Notes under the pieces: generated by a model
Database searches by the model: none
Told to the model about the DNA's origin: nothing
What the model saw: only the letters and a program-made list of their open reading frames with translations
Program-made: the position numbers and the translations under genes
Assembly: GCA_016208965.1 (NCBI GenBank)
Contig: JACQXB010000048.1
Location: 1-58,536 of the forward strand
From: Nitrospirota bacterium
GTDB lineage: Bacteria; Nitrospirota; Thermodesulfovibrionia; UBA6902; DSMQ01
DNA: 58,536 nucleotides
Direction of reading: 5' to 3'
Part shown: positions 9,442-58,371 of the stretch, piece by piece
How positions within the stretch are numbered: position 1 is the first letter of the stretch
Layout of the letters: the number at the start of each line of letters is the position of its first letter

Positions 9442-9459
9442 GGGAACCCCTCTTTATAT

Positions 9460-11680: not shown

Positions 11681-11757
<77 letters not shown>

Positions 11758-15200: not shown

Positions 15201-15414
15201 CCTTTGTTGCTTCAATGCATATTATGTTTTTTTCAGGCTTTATAAGATAAATAGAACATACATCTTTTTTTAATGTATCTGCTATGATCTGGGTAATTTT
15301 ATCGAGGATCTCTTTAAGCTCAAGTGTTGAATTGGCTACGCGGGCAACACTTGTTAATATCTCTGCCTCTAAGACTTTGTAATGATATTCTTTCTGCTCA
15401 ATGGTTTTAGCCAT
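12265..15414 (-). CDS. Soluble multi-sensor histidine kinase (GAF-GAF-PAS-GAF-PAS-HisKA-HATPase)
   Basis: A 1049-residue protein with no membrane segment. Two GAF domains occupy about 15-350, a PAS domain with PAC (SWNKGAEKIYGYTEEE, GISRDISERKRIE) about 365-480, a third GAF about 485-690 and a second PAS about 700-810. A HisKA domain with His831 in RVAHEIRNPLVS follows, then a HATPase (NVITNANQ, DTGCGIKEED, GTGLGLAI) to the end. The second PAS carries YEVFHGKNEPLENCPHHKTM, a Cys/His cluster of the sort sometimes seen in metal- or redox-sensing PAS modules. It starts 18 bases after glgA, so it may be co-transcribed with galT-glgA. Confidence 0.93.
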   Translation of the reverse strand: MAKTIEQKEYHYKVLEAEILTSVARVANSTLELKEILDKITQIIADTLKKDVCSIYLIKPEKNIICIEATKGLKQDSVGIACFPVGEGVVGWVAKELKPLAVEDIRKEPRFKDISITGATDFLSMLAVPILRGSKAVGVITLQTQEPYIYSQDEIALLIIISHNISSAIRNAELYRNAKIRFDGLKAIHEVTKAIASILSINTLLPYICEEVSKLFNARGCILRLIEEGEVRIKTSYGLPEEIKEAMILRLGEGIAGYVAQTGEPLLVDDVSKVPENLRVPVIKATSVLCVPLKIGERIIGTLGLYDKKDVTGITPFTEDDLKLLTTFASASAIAIENARLYMAEVEKERKIRQLYWEVTQMKDYLESIIENSADAIIASDTEGLITSWNKGAEKIYGYTEEEVIGKFLPMVPQFLREDEKKMIEGIKQKETIRHLETKRQTKDGSLIEISLTLSPILDSSGNVTGISGISRDISERKRIEKELIRRNEELSRLFFINSVIRSTLDLDRLLRMVLTVITMGNGLGFNRAILFLVDESASKLNGAIGVGPASYEEAGRIWHSLADKSLETIMGEVENGSLIVDSYLDKVSRNLTIDLRKDCILSQCVREKKPINVPDVKREPRVEPVLIQQLRTEAFGLVPLIAKDKAIGLIWVDNFFNKREIKDEDLQFLMGFTTQIAGAIENARLFEEVSLAQSELQNVFTSISDMLYFTDRDFNIRHVNDAVIVRLGKPKEEIIGRKCYEVFHGKNEPLENCPHHKTMITGKSHIEEIEDSFLGGIFVVSSSPIFDSTGNFIGTVHISRDITELHALRERVVTAEKMAALGEMASRVAHEIRNPLVSIGGFARRLEKRLDGELQGYAGIIVTEARRLEGILKDILRLGFVMAAKTTKHTIDINEVVDSTINFITPEVLEKGNRIVKDLSETTLVTTVDSDRLREAILNVITNANQSTDHGTISIKTKQEDKEALIEISDTGCGIKEEDIKDIFKPFFTRRQYGTGLGLAITHRTIEDNKGRIVVESVWAGERDTDKKGTITRQGGTTFKIYLPLEET

Positions 15415-15432
15415 AAGTTTATTCCGCTGCCT

Positions 15433-16890
15433 TTATGAGTCTCTCTTTGATATTACCTTTTTATAAAGAGAGAGATATTGCCTTGCTGATTGCCGCCATG
15501 AGAAATCCTCTGACATGGCATTTTTACGGATCCTTGACCACTGTTTTTTATCACTGAATAGCTCCTTTGCCTTTTTAACTGACCTGAGGAGATCATCTTC
15601 TGAGTACTTATCAAATAAAAAACCTGTGCCTGTGCCTTCAGATGGGTCATATTGTGTGATTGTGTCAGCAATGCCACCGGTTCTTCTTGCAATAGGTATC
15701 GTACCATAACGTAAGGCAATAAGCTGTCCAAGACCACATGGCTCATATTTTGATGGCATTAGAAACACATCAGAGCCCGCGTAAATCTTATGAGCAAGGG
15801 CATTATCAAAGCCAATAGTAACAGAAAGTTGCCCACTATATTTTTTCTGGAGGTCTAATAATATCCTGTGAAAGGGTTCATCGCCTTTCCCAAGGATAAC
15901 TACCTGTGCCCCGAGTTTAATAATCCCATCCATTGCCTGTGCTGTAATGTCAAGGCCTTTTTGTGCTGAAAGACGCGAGACCATTCCTATGAGGAGGGCA
16001 TTGTCTTGAGTAAGGCCGCAAGTCTTCTGCAGGGCTTTTTTACAAGTAGATTTGCCTGCTAAATTTTTTATGCTATAGGGAGCAGGGATGAGACTATCTT
16101 TCCGGGTGTTCCATTCATTGTAGTCAATGCCATTTATAATCCCATAGAGGTCATTTATCCTTTTCCTTAATACACCATCAAGTCCAAAACCATATTCCTC
16201 GGTTAGGATTTCTTTAGCATAGTTGTTACTTACTGTGGTTATGACATCTGCAAATAAAATACCACCCTTTAGGAAATTTATCTTGCCGTAGAACTCTAAT
16301 GCATCCATATTGAAGAATTCCCGTCCAAGCCCTGTAACTAACATATCAGAAGATGGGAATAACCCCTGATAACCAAGGTTATGAATTGTTATAATGCTTA
16401 TGGTTTCTGGAAAGTCGTCTCTGTAGATGGTTTTTAGATATACAGGAATAAGCCCTGACTGCCAGTCATTACAGTGTATTACATCAAAATTGAGCTTTAG
16501 CACTTTTAATGCCTCAAGCACCCCCCTACAAAAAAAAGTAAAACGGTAGATATTGTCAGAGAAGTCGCCTTTAGGGGTTCCATATAACTCATCTCTATCA
16601 TAGAATTTATCGTTTTCTATAAAGTATGCAGTAGCCCCTTTGGGTGTTTTGCCTTTCCATAAGACCCCTTTTTTATATTTATCACCAAAGGGGATGGTTA
16701 TTTTCTTATCAAGGCACTTGATACCTAAGGCTTTAGCATTATTTTTAATCTTCCTGTAAAGCGGCAGGAATATAGATGCGTCTACCTCCATCTTTTTATA
16801 CTCATCAACAATCGCTCCAGCAACATCTGCAAGCCCGCCTGTTTTTATAAATGGCACAGCCTCGGGTGTGACAATAAGTACTTTCATCAC
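15433..16890 (-). CDS. glgA: Glycogen synthase (GT5)
   Basis: GlgA elongates alpha-1,4-glucan from ADP-glucose. The N-terminal PFIKTGGLADVAG motif binds the sugar nucleotide, HNLGYQGLFP and the C-terminal PSKYEPCGLGQLIALRYGTIPI box are typical, and 485 residues is the usual length. It sits between galT (13 bases upstream) and the histidine kinase, so storage-carbohydrate metabolism and a signalling pair share a transcript. Confidence 0.96.
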   Translation of the reverse strand: MMKVLIVTPEAVPFIKTGGLADVAGAIVDEYKKMEVDASIFLPLYRKIKNNAKALGIKCLDKKITIPFGDKYKKGVLWKGKTPKGATAYFIENDKFYDRDELYGTPKGDFSDNIYRFTFFCRGVLEALKVLKLNFDVIHCNDWQSGLIPVYLKTIYRDDFPETISIITIHNLGYQGLFPSSDMLVTGLGREFFNMDALEFYGKINFLKGGILFADVITTVSNNYAKEILTEEYGFGLDGVLRKRINDLYGIINGIDYNEWNTRKDSLIPAPYSIKNLAGKSTCKKALQKTCGLTQDNALLIGMVSRLSAQKGLDITAQAMDGIIKLGAQVVILGKGDEPFHRILLDLQKKYSGQLSVTIGFDNALAHKIYAGSDVFLMPSKYEPCGLGQLIALRYGTIPIARRTGGIADTITQYDPSEGTGTGFLFDKYSEDDLLRSVKKAKELFSDKKQWSRIRKNAMSEDFSWRQSARQYLSLYKKVISKRDS

Positions 16891-16903
16891 TATTTTCCTC
16901 TAC

Positions 16904-17896
16904 CTATATTTTCGCTTCCCTCATAAATTTTGCTGCCTCTTCTGGTGGTGTTGGATTGATATAAAAACCCGAGCCCCATTCAAAGCCCGCTATCTTTGTA
17001 AGTTTTGGCATTATCTCAATGTGCCAGTGATAATATTCATTTGCCTCATCATGAAATGGTGAAATGTGCAGCATCATGTTATAAGGCGGTCTGTCGAGGA
17101 CTTTATCTATCTGTTTTATTGTGCGCTGCAGGATTTCAGCCAGCATGGGGAAATTTCCATCAGGCTGGAAAGCAGATTGATGCTTTTTAGGCAGTATCCA
17201 TGTCTCAAACGGAGACCTGGGGGCAAAGGGTGAAAGGGATATATAATCTTTGTTTTCAGAGATTGCCCGTACACTGCTTTTCATCTCCTGACGTATTATA
17301 TCGCAGAATATACAGCGCTCTTTTAGTTCATAATACTTCTTTGCACCTTCAATTTCCTCTACTACCTGTTTTGGGACTATAGGGAGGGCTATTAGCTGTG
17401 AGTGTGTATGTTCAAGGGATGCGCCTGCAAGATCACCTTCATTTTTAAAGACAACCACGTACTTGAATCGTAAATCCTTTTTAAGGTCCAGTATCCTGTA
17501 ATAGTATGCCCAGAGCACATCTTCTACGGATTTTAATGATATTGAGGTTAATGCGGCTTCATGGTCGGGGCTTTCTATTATTACCTCATGTGCGCCAATG
17601 CCGTTTATTTTATCATAAATACCTTCTGCAACCTTATCCACATTCCCCTCTATACGTAGGGCGGGGAATTTATTTGGCACAACCCTGAGTGTCCACCCTG
17701 GCGTATTAGGAGGGCTTTTATCAGGACGAAAGGCTAAAATCTCAGGAGGTGTGGTATGTTCATGCCCTTTGCAAAAAGCACAAAACCCTCCTTTCTTAGG
17801 CGATACACCAATGCTGTATTCTGCAGGTCTTTTACCTCTTTCAATGGATATTATGACCCATCTGCCTACAATAGGGTCCTTTCTTAACTCAGGCAT
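16904..17896 (-). CDS. galT: Galactose-1-phosphate uridylyltransferase (GalT) family
   Basis: A HIT-superfamily nucleotidyltransferase of 330 residues, starting MPELRKDPIVGRWVII. The zinc ligands CAFCKGHE and the active-site LEHTHSQLIALP histidines are present. GalT swaps UMP between UDP-glucose and hexose 1-phosphate. Members with this HTHSQ version and a glgA neighbour could instead act on ADP-sugars (ADP-glucose phosphorylase-like). The sequence alone does not settle the choice. It is the first gene of the galT-glgA-kinase-regulator run. Confidence 0.85.
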   Translation of the reverse strand: MPELRKDPIVGRWVIISIERGKRPAEYSIGVSPKKGGFCAFCKGHEHTTPPEILAFRPDKSPPNTPGWTLRVVPNKFPALRIEGNVDKVAEGIYDKINGIGAHEVIIESPDHEAALTSISLKSVEDVLWAYYYRILDLKKDLRFKYVVVFKNEGDLAGASLEHTHSQLIALPIVPKQVVEEIEGAKKYYELKERCIFCDIIRQEMKSSVRAISENKDYISLSPFAPRSPFETWILPKKHQSAFQPDGNFPMLAEILQRTIKQIDKVLDRPPYNMMLHISPFHDEANEYYHWHIEIMPKLTKIAGFEWGSGFYINPTPPEEAAKFMREAKI

Positions 17897-17916
17897 TAAT
17901 ACCTCCCTATAAATAT

Positions 17917-17965
17917 CGTTAACCGTTATACGTTAATCGTTATTGGTATCAACTAATAACCAATA
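17917..17965. repeat. Heptad-periodic spacer upstream of galT
   Basis: The stretch divides exactly into CGTTAAC, CGTTATA, CGTTAAT, CGTTATT, GGTATCA, ACTAATA, ACCAATA. GTTATTGG and CCAATAAC form short complementary arms. It lies 20 bases upstream of the galT start, where a promoter would be expected. Confidence 0.8.
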
Positions 17966-17988
17966 ACAGCTTTATTAAGTTTTCAATA

Positions 17989-18143
17989 CCCCACAGTCTC
18001 TGCTGTGGGGTTTCCTTGTTTCTGTATGTCTGTCATTGTCCGGCTTGACCGGACAATCCAGTCTCTCTGGATTCCCCGATCAAGTCGGGGAATGACAATA
18101 CTTTTTGTGTATTTTTGGATACCCCGCCGTCTCTGCGGCGGGG
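17989..18143. repeat. Pair of REP-like palindromes beside a RAYT remnant
   Basis: CCCCACAG-TCTCTG-CTGTGGGG (17989-18010) and CCCCGCCG-TCTCTG-CGGCGGGG (18122-18143) share 8-bp stems and an identical TCTCTG loop; both are preceded by TA. Between them lies a composite of GTCCGG and TTCCCCGA inverted repeats ending at about 18,105. Such REP pairs are the known targets of REP-associated tyrosine transposases, and one (broken) lies 75 bases away. Nothing in the rest of 17,966-18,216 looks coding. Confidence 0.75.
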
Positions 18144-18216
18144 AAGTCATTTTAATTTAGTATTATACCATTGAGGCTCTTGCAAAAGTCATAAAATGAA
18201 GTAATTTTTTTAGGGA

Positions 18217-18505
18217 TTAAGGCTCTCCTTTGTGCCTTTTATTGAACGTCTGAGTGTAAAACCCGTTTAACTGCCTCATTCCTTTTGAAAAATTCCCGTC
18301 CGGGGTCTCTATTACAAAGTGATAGTGATTGTTCATAAGGCAATAAGCATTACATAACCAGTTATACCTTTTTGTTACCTTATGAAGCGTATCGAGGAAA
18401 ATATTGCGGTCGGTGTCGTCTTTAAAGATGTTCTTTCTCTCATTAGCCTCTTGAAGTGACATGATATAATGCCCCATCATATTTGATTCTTAACGGTCTC
18501 GTCAT
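18217..18505 (-). pseudogene. REP-associated tyrosine transposase (RAYT, Y1_Tnp), frameshifted and truncated
   Basis: The original start is the ATG at 18505, giving MTRPLRIKYDGALYHVTSRG. This is the standard RAYT N terminus with the first HUH-like element. A single extra T (plus-strand A at 18445) shifts the frame. The next frame continues NERKNIFKDDTDRN and includes the catalytic MNNHYHFVIETP HUH motif and GMRQLNGFYTQTFNKRH, then stops. The usual FQGRYKA catalytic-tyrosine half is missing. It is inactive as it stands. The nearby REP pair is probably its relic substrate. Confidence 0.85.
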
Positions 18506-18551
18506 GCAATATAATATACATATTTAAAGCAGATATAGCAAGATTAAAGAC

Positions 18552-19223
18552 ATGATCCCTTTTAAAGACAATAATCCAACAAGCACCTTTCCATTTGTAA
18601 CCATAGGTTTAATTGCTCTAAACACTATAGTTTTTATTTTTAAGTTTTTTTATTCAGGTGACCCAAGACAGATAGTGTTTACATATGGTGCAATCCCAAA
18701 TTATCTCTTAACACTTAATACTATGCAACCTGTTCATCCTGTTTTAACTGTTTTTACATCCATGTTTATGCATGGAGGACTTTTCCACATAGCTGGCAAC
18801 ATGCTCTACCTATGGATATTCGGGAATAATATAGAGGATAGGCTAGGGCATATGAGATTTATAATATTCTATCTCATCTCAGGCATTGCAGCGGCTTACT
18901 CCCACGCTATTACAGAGCCTACATCTATGATCCCAATGGTTGGGGCAAGTGGCGCGGTTTCAGGGATACTCGGTGCATATATACTTCTTTTCCCACATGC
19001 GAGGATTTCTACACTTATTTTTTTTGGGTTCTTTGTCCGCGTTATAACATTACCTGCTTTATTTGTTATAGGCTTCTGGATCGCGATCCAGTTTATAAAT
19101 GGTTTACTAAGTAAGGGGGTTGTAAATCAGGGTGGGGTTGCCTGGTTTGCCCATATCGGAGGCTTTGTCTTTGGCATCATCATAATAAAGTTTTTCTTAA
19201 AGAGCAAAAGAAGATATTATTAA
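18552..19223 (+). CDS. Rhomboid-family intramembrane serine protease
   Basis: A 223-residue polytopic membrane protein. The loop MHGGLFHIAGNMLYLWIFGNNIED, the catalytic Ser133 in GASGAVSGILG and His201 in FAHIGGFVFGI form the rhomboid dyad. Six hydrophobic segments fit the bacterial core without extra domains. Rhomboids cleave within or next to the membrane helices of their substrates; the substrate here is unknown. It is the only intact gene in the 18-20 kb scar zone and stands alone on the plus strand. Confidence 0.93.
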   Translation: MIPFKDNNPTSTFPFVTIGLIALNTIVFIFKFFYSGDPRQIVFTYGAIPNYLLTLNTMQPVHPVLTVFTSMFMHGGLFHIAGNMLYLWIFGNNIEDRLGHMRFIIFYLISGIAAAYSHAITEPTSMIPMVGASGAVSGILGAYILLFPHARISTLIFFGFFVRVITLPALFVIGFWIAIQFINGLLSKGVVNQGGVAWFAHIGGFVFGIIIIKFFLKSKRRYY

Positions 19224-19329
19224 TGGTTCTTCTGGGAATTGAGTGGGGAAAGAAATAGATAATGCAAGATAAAACACAGAGGCACGGAGTAACAGTTTAG
19301 TTCCTATCTTCCTGTGGGCTATTGAGAAA

Positions 19330-19575
19330 TCAACTTGAGTTGTTATATAGCGTAGCTTGAGCCGTTGCTGTGTCCGCGGTAAGAAGGGTTTGCAGGAATT
19401 CCATCGGGTGTACGCCCTGTCTTCTTGCGGTCTGCACCAGACTGGGAAGAATGCTACGGGTTTTCAATCCGCTTTCCGAGCGAGTTCCGAAACATATCTT
19501 GCGGAAGATCACCATATGCCGTAGCGACTATTCTGCATGATTGTTTGTGGGCGGTACGCCGGGTGCCGGAGGAAG
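19330..19575 (-). mobile_element. IS66-like transposase C-terminal remnant
   Basis: Read in one frame, the segment runs VPPTNNHAE, a TAG where Gln is expected, then SLRHMVIFRKICFGTRSESG and a C-terminal tail ending ALLTADTATAQ-like. The TNN-AE and LRH...FGTRSE motifs match the end of IS66-type transposases, from memory. The upstream part of the element is missing, and the remnant joins the PIN pseudogene in the same frame near 19,575. No terminal inverted repeats could be paired. Confidence 0.65.
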
Positions 19576-19714
19576 GTAAATCGGAGGAGAAATGACTATC
19601 TCAAATTCTCGTTTAAGAAATTTCTCTTTAACTCTGGCAGGATACCCTTTTCTATTTACAAAGGCAGAAACCCATACGATTAGTATCAATTAGAACGAGA
19701 ACGCTTTTGGGCAC
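19576..19714 (-). pseudogene. PIN-domain toxin remnant (partner of the AF2212-like antitoxin)
   Basis: A GTG at 19714, inside the antitoxin's 3' end, opens [12 protein letters not shown] single extra C (plus-strand G at 19678) shifts the frame. Removing it gives LIDTNVWVSAFVNRKGYPAR and then KEKFLKREFEIVISPPI, the textbook N-terminal half of a PIN ribonuclease with the first catalytic aspartate. The second half is gone, replaced by the IS66-like remnant. The toxin is therefore dead while its antitoxin frame is intact. Confidence 0.75.
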
Positions 19715-19943
19715 GATAGGTCTCTTGAACCTCTCTAAAGGCTTCTGTAATATTAGCTTCTATTTCTTCAGATGAATATTTGTCAGTTCTTTTGTAAATG
19801 GTTTCGGACAGCTTCTTGAATTGCTTACGCAGACGCTCATCTAAATTTATATCAAGCGTAACCTTTTCATGCTCCTTCAGCGAAAGCGGCTCTAACGGTT
19901 TAAAAACACCATTTTCATATATTGCATTGATTGTTTTAGGCAT
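19686..19943 (-). CDS. AF2212-like (DUF104) antitoxin
   Basis: An 85-residue protein. [32 protein letters not shown] is the AF2212-like beta-rich antitoxin signature, and the remainder is charged and helical, as expected for toxin wrapping. I place the start at 19943, not 19967, because AAGGAGA lies 8 bases upstream of the inner ATG. The 3' end overlaps the PIN toxin remnant by 29 bases, the usual antitoxin-toxin coupling. It is probably an orphaned antitoxin now. Confidence 0.85.
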
Positions 19944-20218
19944 CTTAATTGTCTCCTTACATCTCAAAAGGACTTTTAATTACTATAAACTTCTACTTCC
20001 TTGAAAAGCAAGTTTTTATACCTTTGAAGATTTTTAGAATCAGAATGTGTCATATTGTCATCCTGAACTCGTTTCAGGATCTCAGAGGAGAGGGAAAACG
20101 ACTGAAAAAGGGGTAACTGATATTTCAAGACTTGAACCTCAATTACCCTTCATTGTAGCTTTACCACATTAGAAAGAAAACCCTGTCTTTTAGGTTGGGG
20201 CAAAAAAATATAGCTCGA

Positions 20219-20243
20219 CCCGTTAGAAAAAATTTCTAACGGG
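20219..20243. terminator. Hairpin at the end of the XRE gene
   Basis: CCCGTTAGAAA pairs with TTTCTAACGGG around an AAA loop (11-bp stem). The XRE stop codon lies inside the right arm. On the minus strand the stem is not followed by a long U-tract, so termination efficiency is uncertain. The rest of 19,968-20,218 holds a second small hairpin (ATCCTGAA...TTCAGGAT near 20,055) and no gene. Confidence 0.5.
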
Positions 20244-20595
20244 GGTTACCTGTTAACCCCTTCAAAACATTGTAGACCACTGTTAGCTCGCGCACTTCCA
20301 TTTTCTGCAGCTCAGGGGATATAGCGTCAATATATTTTTTCTTCTGTCTGGCCTCTTGTCTCTTGTCCCGGAACACAATAGGTCCTTTGAAATCAAAGAA
20401 ATCTTTCGCATTGGTATTGAGGGATTTTACCAGCGATTCAAGGGTGTTAAATGAGGGTTGCGATACACCACGCTCTAATCTGCTTATATATTCAACACTC
20501 AACCCTGTCTTTTCAGCAAGACTTTCCTGCGTCAGCTTCGCAGCCTTCCTGATTTGCTTTAGCCTCTTACCCCACTGTTTAGTTATGTCCATCAT
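20236..20595 (-). CDS. XRE-family transcriptional regulator
   Basis: A 119-residue protein. The helix-turn-helix occupies about 9-63 (LKQIRKAAKLTQESLAEKTG, LSVEYISRLERGVSQPS), followed by a charged linker and a short C-terminal helix. AGGGG lies 6 bases before the ATG at 20595. No toxin gene is adjacent, so it is more likely a stand-alone regulator. It is divergent from the argG cluster that starts 167 bases away and is a candidate to control it (inference). Confidence 0.85.
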   Translation of the reverse strand: MMDITKQWGKRLKQIRKAAKLTQESLAEKTGLSVEYISRLERGVSQPSFNTLESLVKSLNTNAKDFFDFKGPIVFRDKRQEARQKKKYIDAISPELQKMEVRELTVVYNVLKGLTGNPR

Positions 20596-35432: not shown

Positions 35433-35675
35433 CCGAAAAATAGACATAGAAAGTTGTCATTGCGAGCAGGTCCCTCGCTTGTCATTGCGAGGCGAAGCCG
35501 AAGCAAACTGACACAAAGTGTCATTCTGAGCGTAGCGAAGAATCTCTTTTGAGATTGCCACGTCCCGAAATGTCGGGACTCGCAACGACCTTTCAGGTCG
35601 GATTGCCACGCACCCTTCGGGTGCTCGCAATGACAGGATTGTTAAGGACTTAGCTTTTCTATCTCTATTTTTCGG
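35433..35675. mobile_element. MITE-like element, copy 1 (243 bp)
   Basis: The ends are near-perfect inverted repeats beginning CCGAAAAATAGA and continuing into ATAGAAA. The interior is made of CATTGCGAG hairpins. About 75 bp at its right end match the left end of the 55,508 copy with a single visible mismatch, in inverted orientation. The flanks ACGAAT and ACGGAT may be a decayed target duplication. No transposase is encoded. It lies in the spacer upstream of bamA; the bamA promoter region may be affected. Confidence 0.8.
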
Positions 35676-49323: not shown

Positions 49324-51438
49324 TTATGGGTCAGGGTTTGTAATTGAACTGCTATGACAACCAGATGCCCCTGAAGTTGCACAATTAGGATTATCCATAC
49401 TCATGCCGCCCCCGTAGCTTGTAGGGGTGGCTGCTTTTTTAAACCCCGTTACTTTCAGACTATTGCCACCGTAATTGTATGGTGCTGGGTCGGGGCTTGT
49501 AGCATTTGCCCCATATCCAATAAACCTTGACCTTTTTGAGCCATGAGGAACTGCTACATGACAATTAACACAAGTCATATCCTGGTGGCCGCTACCTTTA
49601 CCCTCCCCACCACCTCCGCCCCCGCTTTGTGAATGAACATTATTTTTCCAAGTTCCATCATAAACAGGGTGGCAGTTTTTGCAGAATAAACCACCGTATG
49701 AAGTAAAATTATTCTTATCGCTTAATTTCCAGAGTTGTCCGTCATTTCTAAGCGGCCAGTATCTATAATTGCCTTTTAACATATATTTATAACTTGATCC
49801 ATGGAGTCCCTTGGGGTCTCCAGATGCCTCATTGTCTGCTCCATGGCAATCTGAGCAGTACATGGTCTGATTTCCAAGGATAGTGGACCAAGGTGATGAC
49901 ATCTGGGAAGATGTCAATGGTTTCGGGGCATAACTTCCTGTCTGGTTATTCAATGTTACAACTACAGGATGGGCTGATTTGTTGTTCGGATTAAATTCCA
50001 TTGCCTGGTCTGTAACTGTTACACCCGATGCTGTTGTATATGTAGTAACACCGTCTCCATCCCTCAATGCCCAGTATGAATGGCATTTAAAGCATATCTG
50101 ATATTCATATGTTGAAGACTCCTGAGTGGTGAAGGTAGTAGGGACTGTCCATATAGACGGCCATGTAGGTTGTACGCCTGTTACACCTGTAAGTGCGCCT
50201 GATTTGGCTGTCCAATTGGATGTGCTGTCAACACTCGTTGGATACCATGAGGATGTCCCGACTCGTGCCGGTGTATTTTTTGCCCTATGAGGGTTATGGC
50301 AGTCAACACATTCTGCGTGCCTGGCATTCGACCAGTTAAGTCCAAGGCTTCCTGGGGGAGTGCCTCCCAATGGATAAAGCACATCAAGGTTTGTGTGCTT
50401 ACCTGAAGTTGGAGTTGTAGGATGTTTGTATGTCTTTGTTATCACTGTTTGTATATTGTTAGTTGCGGCTGTTGCACTTGTGCCGTGACATGCAGTCTCA
50501 TTGGCTAAATTTGATGCCCCCTGAAAACAGGTGGCCTCTTCTGCCTGCCTCAATAAATAAGGCGCTCCAATGCCTTTATGTGTCCTGTGGCAATTCATGC
50601 AGACAAGGGACGATGTGGTGCTTGTATCAAATGTAGTATTAACATTTGCATCCGAATAAGCATTTGAAGTTGTCTGGTGGATGCTCCCAGTCCAGCCTGT
50701 CTTATTATGACATGCACTGCATGTGTTGCTTATCTTGGCTGCAAGGGTGCCTCCAGTGGTATCCCTTAAAAATTTCTGCTTACTGTATCCAGTATCAATA
50801 TGGGAATCATGACAAGATGAACACTCAACATAGTTCTTGGCGCTTATCGTGTAAAGTTTCATAGCCATTGATGTCGGATTAGATATGAGTTCTATTGTCC
50901 TTATGCCTGAACCAAAAGAAATTGTTATTGATGGGTTATACTCAATACCAACAGGATGGTGCCGAGTGAGATCTGTGCCGATATAACCTGTAGCTGTAGT
51001 CGGTATTGCTCCACTTCCTGTAACCCCGGACATTGCAATAAGATTATTTCCAAGAATTGTCCCCCTTACCATATAAACAGCGCCAACTGCGACTGTTCCG
51101 TCATGACAGCTAAGGCACTGCCTTGAAAGCATTCCGGGAGTGCCTGTGGTGGTTCCAATCGCCAGAGGTAGCGGGTAGTCTGCCCTCTGCAGATATTCGC
51201 TGCCATACATGGTGTAGCCGCTGGTAGGCATATCATGATTCCACAATGGCCTGCCTGGCTGTGCATTATGTGGGGTGTGGCAAAACACGCATATCTCTGT
51301 CTCTGTGGCAGCTTTTATAACTCCCGGGCCTGATATGGACATATTATGCACTGTGTTTGCAATACCTGCGTAAGAAATACAGGCAAAGACAAAGGTAAAG
51401 GCAAAGGCAATTATTTGAATAAAGCACTTCATAATCAT
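49324..51438 (-). CDS. Multiheme c-type cytochrome with ten CXXCH motifs
   Basis: A 704-residue secreted protein (signal FIQIIAFAFTFVFACISYAG). Canonical heme sites in order are CVFCH, CLSCH, CSSCH, CSACH, CMNCH, CVDCH, CFKCH, CSDCH, CKNCH and CVNCH. Two further Cys...CysHis pairs are wider: CX12CH (CFQGASNLANETACH) and CX7CH (CATSGASGCH). A long Gly-rich linker precedes the last CXXCH. Doubled CXXCH architecture like this is common in outer-membrane or extracellular electron carriers. It is the last gene of an NHL-barrel-NHL-cytochrome run, after a 51-base gap. Confidence 0.92.
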   Translation of the reverse strand: MIMKCFIQIIAFAFTFVFACISYAGIANTVHNMSISGPGVIKAATETEICVFCHTPHNAQPGRPLWNHDMPTSGYTMYGSEYLQRADYPLPLAIGTTTGTPGMLSRQCLSCHDGTVAVGAVYMVRGTILGNNLIAMSGVTGSGAIPTTATGYIGTDLTRHHPVGIEYNPSITISFGSGIRTIELISNPTSMAMKLYTISAKNYVECSSCHDSHIDTGYSKQKFLRDTTGGTLAAKISNTCSACHNKTGWTGSIHQTTSNAYSDANVNTTFDTSTTSSLVCMNCHRTHKGIGAPYLLRQAEEATCFQGASNLANETACHGTSATAATNNIQTVITKTYKHPTTPTSGKHTNLDVLYPLGGTPPGSLGLNWSNARHAECVDCHNPHRAKNTPARVGTSSWYPTSVDSTSNWTAKSGALTGVTGVQPTWPSIWTVPTTFTTQESSTYEYQICFKCHSYWALRDGDGVTTYTTASGVTVTDQAMEFNPNNKSAHPVVVTLNNQTGSYAPKPLTSSQMSSPWSTILGNQTMYCSDCHGADNEASGDPKGLHGSSYKYMLKGNYRYWPLRNDGQLWKLSDKNNFTSYGGLFCKNCHPVYDGTWKNNVHSQSGGGGGGEGKGSGHQDMTCVNCHVAVPHGSKRSRFIGYGANATSPDPAPYNYGGNSLKVTGFKKAATPTSYGGGMSMDNPNCATSGASGCHSSSITNPDP

Positions 51439-51489
51439 AAACCCCTCTTTTTAATATCTACTAAGATACTTCAGCAAATTTAGCGCCAC

Positions 51490-52545
51490 CTATTTTTTCT
51501 CATCTTTACCTGTCTTAATATATCTGAACACCTGCACCCTCATATTATATGAGTCTGCTACATATATTTTATCATCACTGGAAATGCTGATACCCGCTGG
51601 TATAGAAAACTCACCATTTTTCGTTCCAGTCATACCGAAGGTTAGAAGAGCCTGTCCTGATTTATCAAATATCTGCACTGCCTCAAAGAGTGTATCAGTC
51701 ACATAGATATGGCCATTGCTGTCAAGGGCAATACCCCTCGGATTTGCCATCTCACCGGCACTGTTACCCCTCCTGCCGAACTTGGTGATAAATTTTCCAT
51801 TCTTATCCAGTATCTGTATCCTCACATTCATAGTATCAGATACATACAGATTTCCATCTCCTCCAAGAGCAATAAAGGTCGGACGGTTAAACTGGCCATT
51901 ACCATCACCATACTCTCCCATGGTTTTTATATACTTACCATCAAGGCTGTAAACAAGGAGTTTACTGGCAAGGGAGTCAACAACATATAAGGTCCCTGAT
52001 GCCTTATCTATGGCAATTCCTGTTGGACGCTCCATAAGATTATCACCGCCTATTTCTCTCAGGAATTTGCCATTTTCATTGAAGATATATACCCTTCTCA
52101 AAACAGAATCTGACACAAATATATCGCCATCCTTGTCCACAGCCACACTAATAGGAGATGTAAAACGATATTTTTTGTTCACACCCTCTATAACAAAATA
52201 TTTGTTATCCTTTGTGTCAAAGACATGGACTGATTGGTCTGCTGTATCAGTAACATACAGCCTGCCGTTGTCATCTGCAAAGACACCAAATGGCTTTATT
52301 ATAAATCTCTCCCTTGATTCGCCCGCGATAAATTCCCATAAGCGGCGGAAAAAACCCTTTTTAATCTGAAAATCGTCAGGTGTAGTAATTGAATACAAAA
52401 ACTCTATCTTGGGCTCCCATGGCGGAGGAGGCCAAACTATATATTCCTTATATTCCTTTTTCTTTTCAACTTCAACCTTTGTACCCATTCCAATGGTCAA
52501 TAATGCCATGAGTAGTGTTAAAAATACTATGAACGTCTTTCTCAT
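51490..52545 (-). CDS. NHL-repeat six-bladed beta-propeller protein
   Basis: A 351-residue exported protein with an N-terminal hydrophobic segment (FIVFLTLLMALLTIGMG) and a Pro-rich stretch (YIVWPPPPWEPKIEF). Six NHL repeats follow (KPFGVFADDNGRLYVTDT, SPISVAVDKDGDIFVSDS, RPTGIAIDKASGTLYVVDS, RPTFIALGGDGNLYVSDT, NPRGIALDSNGHIYVTDT, IPAGISISSDDKIYVADS). It is a paralogue of the protein encoded at 54,323. Such propellers are often found with multiheme cytochromes, possibly as docking partners. The start is 10 bases after the barrel gene stops. Confidence 0.92.
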   Translation of the reverse strand: MRKTFIVFLTLLMALLTIGMGTKVEVEKKKEYKEYIVWPPPPWEPKIEFLYSITTPDDFQIKKGFFRRLWEFIAGESRERFIIKPFGVFADDNGRLYVTDTADQSVHVFDTKDNKYFVIEGVNKKYRFTSPISVAVDKDGDIFVSDSVLRRVYIFNENGKFLREIGGDNLMERPTGIAIDKASGTLYVVDSLASKLLVYSLDGKYIKTMGEYGDGNGQFNRPTFIALGGDGNLYVSDTMNVRIQILDKNGKFITKFGRRGNSAGEMANPRGIALDSNGHIYVTDTLFEAVQIFDKSGQALLTFGMTGTKNGEFSIPAGISISSDDKIYVADSYNMRVQVFRYIKTGKDEKK

Positions 52546-52554
52546 TTATCTCTC

Positions 52555-54231
52555 CTAAAACGGTCTTGATGCCTGGAGGAATGTTGTTGACCTTGTCCTT
52601 GTTCCTTGTGGCCCTTTTTCCTTCCACAGTTCATTTTTAAAGTTCATGGTAATACCCCTTAATCTGTATTCTGCGCCCAGGGAGCCTAAAATCGTGCGTG
52701 TATTATTAAGGCTTTCTTTATAAAAATTCATTCCTGCATTCAATGATAGAGATCTCCTTACACTATAATGGAAAGTCAAGTTGGCGTACCGGAATGTCCT
52801 TGAAGTGGTTCCTGATTCTAAAATCGCACCTGTCTTTGCATCAAGACTGCCTCTAAACCCGATTTGCATAAAGTATCCTATGGAATTATCAGAAGTGAGA
52901 CGCTTTGTCTTTGTAATGGATGATGTTCCGTCCAATTCATCGCCAGTAATACCTTCTTCAGAATAGTTAAGAAGGCTCTGGAGAGTCATGTTCTGTATGA
53001 AACGGCTGACAAATCCAGTATTGAACGTATACCTTTCGGTTTTCTCTTTCAGGGATGAACGGTAAAAATAGCACGAGCCGCCACCATTGATTTCTGAATT
53101 TATTTTGTCAAAAAATTTGGAGACCATTCCACCTATTGAGTAAGACATGGAATTTCTATTCTTTGATGTCTCAAGCTGCTGTGCTGTACCGGTTATTGAT
53201 GTGTCTGCGGAAACGGTAATGTATTTGGGCATCTGCTTTGCAAAGACAAGTCCGAGTGTCAAGGACTCTATTGACTCGTTGCTGAAATCGCCCTCGCTTT
53301 TATAAAGCATAAGGTTCTGGTTCGTTGTTAAAGATTGACTGAGTCTGTATGTAGAATTCCCGAAAAATGTAGCGGAGTTACCCTTATCTTGCTTTTGTTC
53401 TATGTGGTTTGCATGTAAACTGAAATTGGAATTAAAGTCGGAGGACGGCATATAGATAAAATTGATGTCTGAAATCGCGGTTGTGAATTCGGTGAAGCTG
53501 TTGTCATTGTAACTGATGTTCATATTGAAATTTGTTGGTATGCCCGGTTTCAACCCTATAGAAATACTCGCAGCATTGATTGCCTCAAACAGTTTACCAA
53601 AAGTATGCCGGTATGTATAGGCTGCATCTATAAAATCTTCGCCCTTTCTTTTATTAATGCCGAGCATAAAACTCCTGTTTGTCTGGTCGGTGACTTCTGT
53701 TAAACTCGTTGTATTTATATTGTCCTCCTGCATGTCATACCTTAGATTTATCCCTTTGCCAAGAAAGGCACTGCCGAAAAGTCCGTATCTATCAATGGTC
53801 TGTTTTGTCTGAAATATCTGTTCAGGCTGAATTGTCCATGTTGGTAAATCCAGTTTTTCCTTGAATATGGTGAACGGATATTTTGTACCCTGAATAAAGT
53901 CCAGCTTGAGATTGTAATCACGGCTTTTTGCAGTAGTAGTCGTCCTTCCAACTCTGGATTCATCGGTCTCGGAATCCTCTTCTCTGAATGAACCGCCAAT
54001 CCCATACATCAGAAGCCTCGGGCTATAAACATGGCCTTGATATTTTAATTTATAGTCCTGTGTAAATGAGTCTTTTTTAGACTCAGCATCTATGTCTTTA
54101 ATTTTATCATTCTGATATGAAAGTTGAATCAATCCCAAAATTCCCTCTCTTTCTTGTGCAAATGATACAACGGGGAATACAAGGGCGGAAAACGATATTA
54201 CCACACAAGTCCACATCCATCTTGAATTCAT
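52555..54231 (-). CDS. Outer-membrane beta-barrel protein (candidate electron-conduit porin)
   Basis: A 558-residue protein with a signal peptide (WMWTCVVISFSALVFPVVSFA). The mature chain alternates aromatic/hydrophobic and polar residues in many 10-14 residue strands, with no soluble domain, and ends in Phe (ASRPF), a BamA recognition signal. About 20 or more strands seem likely. I recognise no named family. Its place between two NHL propellers and upstream of a ten-heme cytochrome suggests the porin of a porin-cytochrome conduit, which is inference. Confidence 0.8.
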   Translation of the reverse strand: MNSRWMWTCVVISFSALVFPVVSFAQEREGILGLIQLSYQNDKIKDIDAESKKDSFTQDYKLKYQGHVYSPRLLMYGIGGSFREEDSETDESRVGRTTTTAKSRDYNLKLDFIQGTKYPFTIFKEKLDLPTWTIQPEQIFQTKQTIDRYGLFGSAFLGKGINLRYDMQEDNINTTSLTEVTDQTNRSFMLGINKRKGEDFIDAAYTYRHTFGKLFEAINAASISIGLKPGIPTNFNMNISYNDNSFTEFTTAISDINFIYMPSSDFNSNFSLHANHIEQKQDKGNSATFFGNSTYRLSQSLTTNQNLMLYKSEGDFSNESIESLTLGLVFAKQMPKYITVSADTSITGTAQQLETSKNRNSMSYSIGGMVSKFFDKINSEINGGGSCYFYRSSLKEKTERYTFNTGFVSRFIQNMTLQSLLNYSEEGITGDELDGTSSITKTKRLTSDNSIGYFMQIGFRGSLDAKTGAILESGTTSRTFRYANLTFHYSVRRSLSLNAGMNFYKESLNNTRTILGSLGAEYRLRGITMNFKNELWKEKGPQGTRTRSTTFLQASRPF

Positions 54232-54232
54232 C

Positions 54233-54300
54233 GTTCATAATCCACAAGCCATAGTCCATAATTCGCTTTTACTATGAAACATAAACTATCAACTATGAAC
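54233..54300. repeat. Heptad-periodic inverted spacer upstream of the barrel gene
   Basis: GTTCATA ATCCACA AGCCATA GTCCATA ATTCGCT, three T, then ACTATGA AACATAA ACTATCA ACTATGA AC. The two arms are complementary and in exact 7-base register. It interrupts the NHL-barrel-NHL-cytochrome run and starts 2 bases before the barrel ATG, so it occupies the translation-initiation region. Confidence 0.9.
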
Positions 54301-54322
54301 GGCCACCTTCTATGAAATCCCA

Positions 54323-55384
54323 TTAGTAATGACCCCTCAAGTATTCATTATATTTTTCAGGGTTTTCCTTTTTCCACTTCTCGCTCAGATACTGGAATAC
54401 CTGCACCCTGTAGTTAAAGGAATCAACGATATATACCCTGTCTTTTTCATCCACATATACACCTGCAGGGAGCCAGAAATATCCTGGTTCGTGCCCAGGT
54501 CCCCCTATGAAAAGAAGGATTTTACCATTCTCATCAAATATCTGAAGGTTATCAAATGCAGCATCAGCCACATAAACATGTTGCTCGCTGTCAATACCTA
54601 TGCCCTTTGGCCTTGCAAAAGTACCAGGGGCATCTCCTATCTGCCCAAACCTCTTTATAGACTTTCCATCTTTATCAAAAACCTGCACCCTGAAGTTTTG
54701 TGTATCAACGATATATACATTACCGGTTCTCATATCAATTGCTACATTAGAGGGGTAATTAAACTCTCCGTCCTGGGTCCCCCTTATGCCGAAAGTAAAC
54801 AAAGGCTCGCCTTTTGTAGAATAAACATGCACCATATGTCCATAACTGTCAACTACATACAATCTCCCGAGTTCATTATTTACAGCAATACCAGCAGGAT
54901 TTTTAAACTCATCTTTTTTGCCGAGGGCTATCTTCAGATTTCCATTTGCATCATAACCAAACACCCTCTTCTGTTTTGCATCCGATACAAAAACTGTGCC
55001 ATCAGAAGAAACAGCCACACCTACAGGAAGGATAAGCCTTCCCATACCCTCACGTCCAATAAAGGTTACTTTCCGCTCCTTCAAGTCAAAGACAAATACA
55101 ACGGAGCTCTGGGTATCCGTAACATAAATCTTGTCATTATATGCAGTAACACCATAAGGCTTCATAATCTCGGTGCTAAAAATTGGTTCACCGAGAACTT
55201 TCTCAAGAAATCCCCTTTTCTTGAAATTGCTTTCTCCCTTATAGCTGTCCAGATAAACCAGTCTCGGTTCCTCAGGAGGAAGGGGATAAATAAGTTTAAC
55301 TTCTTTTGGCGGGGGTGCTGCACAACCGTAAATTGACAGGAATACAGAAAATATCAACAGATAGCGACACACATGGTTCAGCAT
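54323..55384 (-). CDS. NHL-repeat beta-propeller lipoprotein
   Basis: About 353 residues. Signal MLNHVCRYLLIFSVFLSIYG followed by the lipobox Cys (YGCAAPPP) marks a lipoprotein. After a Pro-rich linker come NHL repeats (KPYGVTAYNDKIYVTDT, LPVGVAVSSDGTVFVSDA, NPAGIAVNNELGRLYVVDS, YPSNVAIDMRTGNVYIVDT, RPKGIGIDSEQHVYVADA, LPAGVYVDEKDRVYIVDS). I place the start at 55384 because the signal peptide begins there; a GTG at 55399 is the alternative and neither has ideal spacing. It is the first gene of the redox run. Confidence 0.88.
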   Translation of the reverse strand: MLNHVCRYLLIFSVFLSIYGCAAPPPKEVKLIYPLPPEEPRLVYLDSYKGESNFKKRGFLEKVLGEPIFSTEIMKPYGVTAYNDKIYVTDTQSSVVFVFDLKERKVTFIGREGMGRLILPVGVAVSSDGTVFVSDAKQKRVFGYDANGNLKIALGKKDEFKNPAGIAVNNELGRLYVVDSYGHMVHVYSTKGEPLFTFGIRGTQDGEFNYPSNVAIDMRTGNVYIVDTQNFRVQVFDKDGKSIKRFGQIGDAPGTFARPKGIGIDSEQHVYVADAAFDNLQIFDENGKILLFIGGPGHEPGYFWLPAGVYVDEKDRVYIVDSFNYRVQVFQYLSEKWKKENPEKYNEYLRGHY

Positions 55385-55507
55385 TCTAAACAGGCACACT
55401 CCTCTAAAGCAATATTATTCCATATATAAACTTGATATCCTGCAGCTTGCTCATTAAAAAATAGTATTCTATTTCTTCCTTTTCTTTGTCAAGTGGCCTG
55501 CTGTTTA

Positions 55508-55664
55508 CCGAAAAATAGAGATAGAAAAGCTAAGTCCTTAACAATCCTGTCATTGCGAGCACCCGAGGGGTGCGTGGCAATCTCGTTATAAAAAGGCGAG
55601 ATTGCTTCGTTTCACTCGCAATGACACGTCACTCGCAATGACACGCTCTATCTCTATTTTTCGG
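55508..55664. mobile_element. MITE-like element, copy 2 (157 bp) with 7-bp target duplication
   Basis: Terminal inverted repeats begin CCGAAAAATAGAGATAG at both ends. The 7 bases CTGTTTA lie directly outside each end (55501-55507 and 55665-55671), a clean target-site duplication. The interior has CATTGCGAG units. The left 75 bp match the right end of the 35,433 copy almost perfectly. It inserted between the small cytochrome terminator and the NHL lipoprotein gene. The rest of 55,400-55,747 contains only the terminator and the lipoprotein leader. Confidence 0.9.
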
Positions 55665-55747: not shown

Positions 55748-56485
55748 TTATTTGCCGTGGCATGAAAGACAGAGTGCACTCCCTGAATTGCTTAATCTCA
55801 AAAATAATGCACCTGCTGTTGTTCCTTGTCCAGTTGTGTCTCCAGAAGCAACATGGGGATCATGACAGCTTGAGCATTCCACCTTGCCGCCCCTGAGAAG
55901 GGATGCTATTGTCCCTGTACCAAATCCAGTGGTAGTTGCCTTCAGGCTTGCCTTTCCGGCAGTATAGACAATGGATACAGGATGGTCATCTGCCAAATTT
56001 GTTCCAAGATTGGATGCTCCAGCAGGCATTACATACGCTGTTCCTGCTGCTGTTGCACCAAATGCTACATTAGTGCCGCCAGTAACAACACCGCCTGAAC
56101 CTGCTGCGTTAACGATAGAGTTGATAGCGCTTACACCATCATGGCAGCTCAGACATGCCTTGGTAATACCGGCAGGTGAAGTATCAGGAGTTGTGCCTGC
56201 AATGGTTGTTGCATACATGATATAACTTGCTGATGGAGTCGCCTTGTTCCAGAGTGGTGCGCCTGCAAAGTCTGTGTTTGCAAAGTGAGGAGCATGGCAC
56301 CATACACAGATTTCACCGTTCTGCTGTGTGCCGGTTGCGTGAATTGTGCCAGTACCACTGGGTGAAAGATTATGCTTTGTGTCTGCTACACCGCCTGCCA
56401 TTGCAGCACCTGCGCCTAAGAGTGCAATTGCCACCCCTATTACTATTAATATCAAAGTCTTTTCCTTCATTGTCTTTTCCTTCAT
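55748..56485 (-). CDS. Four-heme c-type cytochrome
   Basis: A 245-residue periplasmic protein with CVWCH, CLSCH, CSSCH and CLSCH, the last 4 residues from the end. The architecture resembles the smaller doubled-CXXCH cytochromes. The signal is LILIVIGVAIALLGAGAAMAG. The start is doubled: a tandem 15-base repeat gives MKEKTMKEKT, so either ATG (56485 or 56470) could be used. GGGAGG lies 8 bases before the first. It has its own sigma-54 promoter and palindromic activator sites, unlike the larger cytochrome. Confidence 0.92.
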   Translation of the reverse strand: MKEKTMKEKTLILIVIGVAIALLGAGAAMAGGVADTKHNLSPSGTGTIHATGTQQNGEICVWCHAPHFANTDFAGAPLWNKATPSASYIMYATTIAGTTPDTSPAGITKACLSCHDGVSAINSIVNAAGSGGVVTGGTNVAFGATAAGTAYVMPAGASNLGTNLADDHPVSIVYTAGKASLKATTTGFGTGTIASLLRGGKVECSSCHDPHVASGDTTGQGTTAGALFLRLSNSGSALCLSCHGK

Positions 56486-56541: not shown

Positions 56542-56558
56542 CGCAAAAAATATACCAG
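56542..56558 (-). promoter_or_regulatory. Sigma-54 promoter of the four-heme cytochrome
   Basis: On the minus strand the sequence is TGGTATATTTTTTGC: GG and GC separated by exactly 10 bases, with TTTTTT before the GC. Transcription would start near 56,530, giving a leader of about 45 bases. The activator palindromes at 56633-56668 are about 80-110 bases upstream, a normal enhancer distance. Confidence 0.78.
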
Positions 56559-56632
56559 TAGAAATGATTAAAGAAAGTCCTTGAAAAACTGAAAAAAAAT
56601 TGAACACGAAGTATAGGATACCCTCATAAACA

Positions 56633-56668
56633 GTGAAATCACCATATCCAGTTGGTGATTTCACCAAC
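56633..56668. promoter_or_regulatory. Paired TGGTGA-WW-TCACCA activator sites upstream of the four-heme cytochrome
   Basis: GTGAAATCACCA (56633-56644) and GTTGGTGATTTCACCAAC (56651-56668) are two copies of the same dyad, centred about 22 bases apart, which puts them on the same DNA face. The first has one degenerate half. The same dyad occurs twice at 57505-57560. The rest of 56,486-56,697 contains only the promoter and leader. Confidence 0.75.
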
Positions 56669-56697
56669 TTACCACAACTAATATTCTCATTTCATCC

Positions 56698-57363
56698 TCA
56701 TTTTTTGTGACAGGTAAAACATAGTGCGCTTCCTATATTGGACTTTCTCAGGAACGGATTCTTACTCGGGTCGTGTGGCTCATGACAGGAAATACATTCA
56801 ACCCTGCCACTATCTAACTTCACATCGCTCCAGCCGTTCTGCGCGTCAGGAGGCGTATTAAACATCAGATCCTGCACAGTTGTAGGATATGTATTGGAGA
56901 TAGGATGATGAGCACCGAGGTTTAAAGGTTCTGTTGGATAATCTCCGAAAAGCCGCAAGTTATCATTCCTGCTCCAATGGCATCTATTACAATTGGGGTT
57001 TGATGTTGTATCAGGTATACTGCCCGCACCCGGGCCATTAATTAAATCATGCATTTTATTATTTGCATTCACGCCGTCATGGCAGCTAAAACATACAAGG
57101 GAACTTGGGTTAGGAATTGCGGGACATGATGTATTCATAGTAGGACTCGAATAAGGTGTAAAGGTGCTTGTCGTAGTCTGTCTGTTCCATAAAGGTTTCA
57201 AACCCGTATTAGAAAAATGAGGGGTATGGCAGAATACACATATCTCTTCTCCAGCAGTACTGATGTCATGTCTTGACCCTACAATGGTCGCACCATACGC
57301 AACAACATCTATCGTGAGTATTGGAAAGATTATTAAAACAATTAGTTTTGTATTGATTTTCAT
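56698..57363 (-). CDS. Five-heme c-type cytochrome
   Basis: A 221-residue periplasmic protein with CVFCH, CFSCH, CNRCH, CISCH and CFTCH. The signal is LIVLIIFPILTIDVVAYG. The heme spacing and the CVFCHTPHFSN...PLWNRQ segment match the four-heme and ten-CXXCH cytochromes nearby, so the three are paralogues. It is the first of the two small cytochromes, with its own sigma-54 promoter; the ribosome site is weak. Confidence 0.92.
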   Translation of the reverse strand: MKINTKLIVLIIFPILTIDVVAYGATIVGSRHDISTAGEEICVFCHTPHFSNTGLKPLWNRQTTTSTFTPYSSPTMNTSCPAIPNPSSLVCFSCHDGVNANNKMHDLINGPGAGSIPDTTSNPNCNRCHWSRNDNLRLFGDYPTEPLNLGAHHPISNTYPTTVQDLMFNTPPDAQNGWSDVKLDSGRVECISCHEPHDPSKNPFLRKSNIGSALCFTCHKK

Positions 57364-57404
57364 AGATTTTAGTAGATCTTAGCCTTTATTATATAAAATA
57401 AAAA

Positions 57405-57421
57405 AGCAAAAAACATGCCAT
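57405..57421 (-). promoter_or_regulatory. Sigma-54 promoter of the five-heme cytochrome
   Basis: On the minus strand: TGGCATGTTTTTTGC. The TGGCA half is a near-perfect -24 box and the spacing GG-N10-GC is exact. Transcription would begin near 57,394, about 30 bases before the ATG. Confidence 0.85.
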
Positions 57422-57504
57422 TAAACTCATCCCCTACTAAAATAAAAGAGTTATAAGACACAAAAATCATCCTCTGGCACTACAATTCTACTACATCCAC
57501 AATA

Positions 57505-57560
57505 GGTTCAGGATGGTGAAATCACCAATTTAGATTATGGTGATTTCACCATCCTGAACC
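57505..57560. promoter_or_regulatory. Shared 23-bp inverted repeat carrying two TGGTGA-WW-TCACCA dyads
   Basis: Two perfect 23-bp arms (57505-57527 and 57538-57560) flank a 10-base loop. Each arm contains one dyad (57514-57527 and 57538-57551), centred 24 bases apart. It sits between divergent sigma-54 promoters (57405-57421 minus and 57612-57627 plus) and could serve both as an enhancer. The rest of the 57,364-57,726 spacer holds these promoters and a heptad block. Confidence 0.8.
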
Positions 57561-57562
57561 GG

Positions 57563-57604
57563 AAGTAGGAAGTTTTTGCTTTTTACTCCTTACTTCTACT
57601 TCTC
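57563..57604. repeat. Heptad-periodic block beside the shared activator site
   Basis: AAGTAGG AAGTTTT on the left and ACTCCTT ACTTCTA CTTCTCC on the right are complementary arms in 7-base register, similar in sequence to the 1,208-1,287 block. It lies directly upstream of the plus-strand sigma-54 promoter. Confidence 0.7.
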
Positions 57605-57611
57605 CATTGTT

Positions 57612-57627
57612 TGGTATGTTTATTGCA
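57612..57627 (+). promoter_or_regulatory. Sigma-54 promoter of the REC-PilZ gene
   Basis: TGGTATGTTTATTGC with GG at 57613-57614 and GC at 57625-57626, exactly 10 bases apart. The GC is followed by A, as in many sigma-54 sites. Transcription would start near 57,638, about 90 bases before the ATG at 57727. Confidence 0.75.
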
Positions 57628-57726: not shown

Positions 57727-58371
57727 ATGAAAAGGGTTCTTATAGTTGATGACGAGAGATTGATACTTGATGGATTATCAAAGTCTCTCTCTAATGAATA
57801 TACCGAGATAAAAACCATAGAAACAGGTGAAGATGCGCTTAAGGAAATTGTTTCCTGTTTTTATGACCTTTGCATTTTAGACATCTATCTGCCTGATATC
57901 AACGGACTGAATGTTATGAAGAAGATAAGGGAGATATCTCCTGAGACTAAAGTAGTTATCATGACAGCTTACCATATAACTAATGAAATGACGCAGGAGA
58001 TAGAAGATAATGCCCATTACTTTATTAGCAAACCCTTTGACCTCTCTCAGATAAAAGTCATCTCGGAGATGGCATTGAGTGGAGAGGGAAAAGATGCAAG
58101 AAGGTCTAAAAGAATACCATTTATGAAAACCATTGTTTACTTTGCAAGCGTTCTGGAAGATGAAATGTTGAAGATATTGAACTTAAAGGGTGATATTGTT
58201 GATGTAAACGATGATGGTATTGGTATGAAGACAGACTATCCCCTCAAGACGGGCTATATGGTGAGGTTCCCTGAAGAAACAAAACATGATTTAGGAGTTG
58301 TCAAGTGGAGCATGTCTACAGGAGGTGGTTCCTACAGGGTAGGAATTGAGTTTTTGAAACGTAGCGTTTAG
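57727..58371 (+). CDS. REC-PilZ response regulator
   Basis: A 214-residue protein from the ATG at 57727, which has AAGGAG 5 bases upstream; a longer frame from 57637 would add 30 residues without a ribosome site. Residues 1-118 form a receiver with Asp8-Asp9, phospho-acceptor Asp52 (CILDIYLPDING), Thr in MTAYH and Lys in FISKPF. Residues 130-214 resemble PilZ: ARRSKRIPF supplies the RXXXR half and DVNDDGIGM the D-X-N/S-X-X-G half of a c-di-GMP site, the second being degenerate. It may link phosphorylation to c-di-GMP. It shares its activator site with the five-heme cytochrome. Confidence 0.88.
   Translation: MKRVLIVDDERLILDGLSKSLSNEYTEIKTIETGEDALKEIVSCFYDLCILDIYLPDINGLNVMKKIREISPETKVVIMTAYHITNEMTQEIEDNAHYFISKPFDLSQIKVISEMALSGEGKDARRSKRIPFMKTIVYFASVLEDEMLKILNLKGDIVDVNDDGIGMKTDYPLKTGYMVRFPEETKHDLGVVKWSMSTGGGSYRVGIEFLKRSV

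Follow-up and report, generated by a model that had tools for sequence, protein, structure and literature searches.

A contig of a Nitrospirota draft genome ends in two genes for multihaem c-type cytochromes and a divergent gene for a response regulator, with short inverted repeats between them, which raises the question of how these genes are controlled and from what signal. An earlier note on this DNA had proposed three sigma-54 promoters served by repeated TGGTGA-N2-TCACCA dyads and an NtrC-family activator, forming a two-component or c-di-GMP-linked switch. The window, i.e. the whole stretch of DNA analysed (58,536 bp), is the complete contig C43 of a draft genome of 1.67 Mb and 87.8% completeness. 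The genome was searched by pattern and selected stretches were inspected in detail; the relatives named below are Nitrospirota of the class Thermodesulfovibrionia. Features of the window end are collected in Table 1.

Table 1. Features at the end of the window, in order of position
Feature	Coordinates	Strand	Evidence
4-haem cytochrome c, full-length OmcE (7TFS) homologue	55748..56485	-	phmmer E 1.1e-20, residues 16-245
Sigma-54 promoter, 4-haem cytochrome	56543-56557	-	TGGTATATTTTTTGC, strict match
Paired dyad	56631..56666		CAGTGAAATCACCA, 8 bp, TGGTGATTTCACCA; pair centre 105.5 bp from -12 element
5-haem cytochrome c, OmcE homologue	56698..57363	-	phmmer vs 7TFS E 2e-20
Sigma-54 promoter, 5-haem cytochrome	57406-57420	-	TGGCATGTTTTTTGC, strict match
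Paired dyad, common to two divergent promoters	57514..57551		TGGTGAAATCACCA, 10 bp, TGGTGATTTCACCA; pair centre 126.5 and 93.5 bp from the two -12 elements
Sigma-54 promoter, REC-PilZ-like gene	57612-57626	+	TGGTATGTTTATTGC, strict match
Response regulator: receiver and C-terminal beta-barrel with PilZ-like motif	57727..58371	+	Pfam REC 2.4e-25
NtrC-family activator C terminus, Fis-type helix-turn-helix, 51 aa	58380..58535	-	translation; same HTH as full-length orthologues

Sigma-54 promoters and paired dyads

Promoters were called with a strict sigma-54 pattern (TGGYAYRNNNNTTGC; criterion TGGCAYR-N4-TTGCW with GG-N10-GC), giving 14 matches genome-wide versus 3 for the reversed control. All three promoters described earlier were recovered as strict matches. 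RpoN (sigma-54) is encoded in the genome on contig C42 (PF04552, E 1.1e-55).

The exact dyad was located at 56653-56666, 57514-57527 and 57538-57551 and nowhere else in the genome; a fourth site at 56631-56644 carries two mismatches. The sites form the two clusters of two that had been reported, with centre-to-centre spacings of 22 and 24 bp. Searching the genome with TGAAATCA-N10-22-TGATTTCA returned paired dyads in four places (reversed control 0): the two window pairs, a pair at 100310-100339 of contig C5 upstream of a 4-haem cytochrome/ArrA-like Mo-oxidoreductase operon, and a pair at 121311-121340 of contig C10 upstream of an 8-haem cytochrome gene. On C5 and C10, a strict sigma-54 promoter is found about 105 bp from each pair centre, and the regulon comprises five strict promoters, three in the window and one on each of these contigs. 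The scan bears out the specific cytochrome regulon that the earlier note had predicted: the dyads are not scattered, all four pairs precede strict sigma-54 promoters that serve cytochrome genes or a REC-PilZ gene, and the regulon is wider than the window, with the oxidoreductase operon and the 8-haem cytochrome as members.

Upstream of every strict sigma-54 site (n = 14), a 200-bp stretch was scored for its best-matching dyad pair. Mismatch counts were bimodal, with 0-3 at the five regulon sites (0-1 at the three window promoters) versus 9-11, i.e. no dyad, at the remaining nine; among 3000 stretches of 200 bp drawn at random from the window, the range was 7-13, with none below 7. The dyad therefore sets apart a few of the sigma-54 promoters. 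At two mismatches, 58 single dyads were counted genome-wide versus 29 in the control; lone sites are thus uninformative, and only pairs were used; the single-site candidates C12:18987 (within coding sequence) and C27:30757 were dropped, as neither has a pair.

Between enhancer and promoter, an alignable T-rich stretch is common to C43, C5, C10 and two relatives, which suggests either that the promoters arose by duplication or that the stretch is a bend site like those to which IHF binds in RpoN promoters (PMC7962754).

Activator, kinase and conservation

The activator C terminus lies tail to tail with the regulator gene, 8 bp beyond it, a gap already given in the earlier note. Contig C43 breaks within the activator gene, and the AAA+ domain lies outside the window; in this genome the N-terminal 47 codons (a REC piece) are found at the edge of contig C12 and the C-terminal HTH on C43 and C5. 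The ends of C43 (58396-58536) and C5 (L030:10029-10169) hold an identical 141 bp of the gene, a length taken to be the k-mer overlap of the assembler. With this shared end, the gene either exists in two near-identical copies, one per target cluster, as after a recent duplication, or is present as two strain variants. The orthologue in genome G009 is a full NtrC-type protein with Pfam REC, Sigma54_activat AAA+ and HTH_8 domains. The HTH (NKTLAAKLLNISYDSLRYQIKKFG) is near-invariant across the genomes that carry dyads and differs from the HTHs of this genome's other activators. The best NCBIfam models for the activator include AtoC and NtrC, all below cut-off. In all orthologues examined the loop reads GAFTDA, not GAFTGA; PMC4641369 includes this variant among those that function.

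A gene for a kinase with HAMP, HisKA and HATPase domains is located on C12, the same contig as the first 47 codons of the activator; kinase, NtrC and REC genes are adjacent in G009 (C18_concoct.bin.153), G034 (SURF_45), G022, G012, G138, G050 and others, and there the tail beside the regulator gene is part of a complete NtrC-type protein. The sensor region of the kinase gave no sensor match in Pfam. A CFxCHH haem-c motif is invariant in 13 of 13 homologues of this region, AlphaFold2 models the region as a bundle made up entirely of helices (pLDDT 75.7), and the top Foldseek matches of the model were NarQ structures, at weak similarity (E 2.8e-3). Drawing on this motif, the helical model and the weak NarQ match, we infer that the kinase may attach haem c and sense a redox state or a ligand. 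Kinase and dyads occur together: dyads are present in each of the seven genomes whose kinase homologue scores above 360 bits, and a kinase above 277 bits is encoded in 10 of the 11 genomes with dyads, the dyad genome G011 having no close kinase homologue.

The class was scanned with GGTGAAATMACC-N10-GGTKATTTCACC, allowing at most 2 mismatches, in 231 Thermodesulfovibrionia genomes. Fourteen pairs were found in 11 genomes (control 0 in all 231), twelve of them with a sigma-54 promoter at 94-128 bp between dyad centre and -12 element; conserved pairs 94-130 bp from the promoter are present in more than one genus. Downstream of the pairs are 4-haem/ArrA-like operons, multihaem cytochrome genes (8-haem among them), genes for REC or REC-PilZ proteins and, in one case, the gene of a PAS protein. 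The G034:C26 pair lies 252 bp from its promoter; the G012:C54 pair has no well-oriented promoter and may be a chance occurrence. Odd-spaced pairs obtained with looser spacing in relatives, namely G166, G068, G120, G198, G086, G140, G011:C175 and G027, which lack the flanking GG/CC, were treated as chance. Distances between pair and -12 element fall in helical steps of about 95, 106, 116 and 127 bp (Rayleigh p about 0.006-0.01, with related promoters pooled by hand and most distances taken from related promoters, so that the values are not fully independent). The arrangement recurs with an NtrC-type activator and its cognate kinase in several families of the class, which upholds the two-component alternative of the earlier note; on these sequence comparisons the two-component reading is strongly supported. 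A scan of the phylum (396 genomes, at most 1 mismatch) returned one site outside the class. On one side of it stands the sigma-54 promoter of a 5-haem cytochrome and on the other a REC gene, which converges tail to tail with the gene of an NtrC homologue; at the level of gene and site arrangement, this module is a blind confirmation.

The assignment of the enhancers to the local activator rests on proximity and co-occurrence, and the genome has eight other clear sigma-54 activators, one of which might bind the dyads and leave the local NtrC protein a bystander. This is unlikely, as the dyads track the kinase in the proportions given above and adjoin an activator of the local type in nearly all dyad genomes, one in another class included, and the genome's other activators differ in their recognition helices, and none of them adjoins dyads. 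Still less probable is that a repressor or some unrelated regulator, e.g. a c-di-GMP or redox-responsive factor, binds the pairs, and that these just happen to lie upstream of sigma-54 promoters. Two-fold symmetric sites would suit many regulators, and the direction of control, with the dyads as activating sites, is itself a reading of the sequence; however, the position 95-130 bp upstream, the pairing two helical turns apart and the conserved helical phase to the -12 element fit enhancers, the association is exclusively with a subset of sigma-54 promoters, and such promoters are established to require an activator (PMC4641369). Least probable are hairpins (bidirectional terminators, repeat elements or mobile-element ends) in place of protein sites, a reading suggested by perfect inverted repeats of 23 bp around 57505-57560 and 12 bp at 56633-56664, with arms reaching beyond the dyads at C43 and C10, and rejected because changes in the core are mostly uncompensated (only 4 of 30 altered positions compensated across the hairpin), flanking complementarity is missing in most orthologues, a T run is absent, and only four pair copies exist genome-wide, all at promoters.

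Some further loci were observed during the scans. Exported proteins of one apparent family with 'GINNSG'-like repeats are encoded behind sigma-54 promoters at L196 (G034:C26, the promoter with the pair 252 bp upstream) and L174 (G002:C69:4408); they are possible further members of the regulon. At L175 (G040:C220:3174-3288), a half-conserved dyad pair and a TAGCAT-N5-TTGC promoter precede a 997-aa non-cytochrome gene. In another phylum, L066 (Candidatus Aminicenantes JdFR-80, 6957-20348) holds genes for a kinase, NtrC, REC, 7-haem and 8-haem cytochromes, NHL proteins and a beta-barrel, and an OmcE-like gene that has a strict sigma-54 promoter (17531) in front of it; the dyad of this cluster is a different one, of the TGGGT-N6-ACCCA type.

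Target genes

The four-haem and five-haem cytochromes were found with the haem counts and coordinates that had been reported. Both, as well as the C5 cytochrome, matched OmcE (7TFS, named as such in PMC12954529), the nanowire subunit of Geobacter, at E 1e-20 to 6e-17. In an alignment of eight sequences, the 4-haem cytochrome shows four CxxCH motifs and four further invariant His; the eight invariant His would fit bis-His ligation. The 55748-56485 gene thus combines full-length homology, four CxxCH motifs and the bis-His set, by which an OmcE-type cytochrome was defined. Downstream of it, 49324-55399 encodes an NHL-repeat protein, a second NHL protein, a 704-aa multihaem cytochrome and a 558-aa predicted outer-membrane beta-barrel that has no Pfam match, a set that looks like an export/conduit cluster.

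The C5 gene set consists of the 4-haem cytochrome, the ArrA-like Mo-oxidoreductase, an FeS subunit and a TorD-like chaperone. The oxidoreductase scored 606 bits against the NCBIfam ArrA equivalog, below its cut-off of 1600; ArrA is both its nearest model and its nearest solved structure. The C10 target is an 828-aa 8-haem cytochrome, with about 330 bp from its promoter to the start codon.

As to the REC-PilZ gene of the earlier note, the receiver domain was confirmed, the start was moved from 57637 to the better ATG at 57727, and a PilZ match was not obtained with Pfam in the window copy. A scan of genome contigs with the REC-PilZ protein gave three useful relatives, the remainder being mostly generic receivers. 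Three orthologues match PilZ at 16-19 bits, below the cut-off of 22.5. Among the PilZ-like motifs, RxxxR is invariant, and DxSxxG of the orthologues reads DVNDDG in the window copy (N for S). The AlphaFold2 model (pLDDT 83.6) has six C-terminal strands, and the only near-full-length match in a PDB profile search with the PilZ part was a weak one to Alg44 (E 1.2). The sub-threshold matches of the orthologues, the partly conserved motifs and the predicted six-strand domain lend weak support to a PilZ assignment. The REC-PilZ-like gene is a target and not the activator; on this ground, and given the weak PilZ assignment, the c-di-GMP-linked switch was not upheld.

Proposed circuit and known systems

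On the sites, promoters, genes, conservation and co-occurrence observed, the end of the window most likely belongs to a two-component sigma-54 regulon dedicated to extracellular or respiratory electron transfer. A NarQ-like four-helix periplasmic sensor kinase with covalent haem c would register a redox or ligand state in the electron-transport chain and, in response, phosphorylate the neighbouring NtrC-type response regulator. Once activated, the regulator would occupy a pair of dyads (consensus TTGGTGAAATCACCAA-N6-TTGGTGATTTCACCAA) some 95-130 bp upstream and loop to sigma-54 RNA polymerase at TGGCAY-N5-TTGC promoters, leading to the open complex and hence to activation. Its targets would be the two OmcE-family cytochromes and the REC-PilZ-like regulator in the window and, beyond it, the OmcE-family 4-haem cytochrome/ArrA-like molybdopterin oxidoreductase operon on C5 and the 8-haem cytochrome on C10. 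A further-reaching version is offered tentatively: an undescribed class of haem-c four-helix-bundle kinases might read the redox state of periplasmic electron export and, through a dedicated NtrC activator and paired GGTGAAATMACC enhancers, turn on OmcE-family nanowire cytochromes directly, and the co-induced REC-PilZ-like protein might link the signal to c-di-GMP, for attachment or wire secretion.

The mechanism would be canonical for sigma-54; sensor, operator and targets appear undescribed. Among open-licence papers, a literature search on how sigma-54 or two-component systems control OmcE-type cytochromes yielded no title or abstract on the present system, which is weak evidence of novelty. 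According to a review of 2025, how multihaem cytochrome nanowires are assembled and regulated is little understood (PMC12307469). The circuit proposed for OmcE-family cytochromes is compact, with a putative haem-bearing kinase, an activator, a 38-bp operator and five promoters. Its operator is specific enough (0 control matches, 231 genomes) for regulon members to be called from sequence alone, and the circuit turns up again in several families of the class and, at least once, beyond it.

Among described systems, the DVU3142/ohcBAC regulon of Desulfovibrio vulgaris (PMC4641369) comes closest: there, too, a sigma-54 activator adjoins a multihaem cytochrome operon with predicted sites upstream, and the regulon was identified by the same comparative logic. 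Unlike the present system, it has a one-component activator and an octahaem periplasmic Ohc complex, and lacks a haem-bearing kinase, OmcE-type cytochromes and a REC-PilZ gene. With NtrB-NtrC and AtoS-AtoC the system shares an activator of REC-AAA+-Fis HTH architecture and paired dyad enhancers upstream of -24/-12 promoters, whereas dyad, sensor and targets differ, as does the GAFTDA loop. NtrC sites read TGCACC-N5-GGTGCA. The kinase resembles the nitrate/nitrite sensor kinase NarQ in its predicted TM-four-helix-TM-HAMP layout and by the weak fold match, but adds the invariant CFxCHH haem-c motif and has a HisKA kinase domain; that of NarQ is HisKA_3. Haem-c Cache sensors (DUF3365/Tll0287; PMC12889525) are likewise periplasmic sensors with covalent haem c, which is predicted here; they have a Cache fold, in contrast to the all-helical bundle modelled here. 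The OmcE nanowire of Geobacter sulfurreducens (7TFS) agrees with the 4-haem cytochrome in full-length homology, four haems and the conserved His set; unlike OmcE, the second window cytochrome has five haems.

Elsewhere in the window, the repeat TCATTGCGAG occurs in both orientations in clusters at 35457-35633 and 55550-55641, with 6 copies versus 0.04 expected, and is a short palindromic intergenic repeat family.
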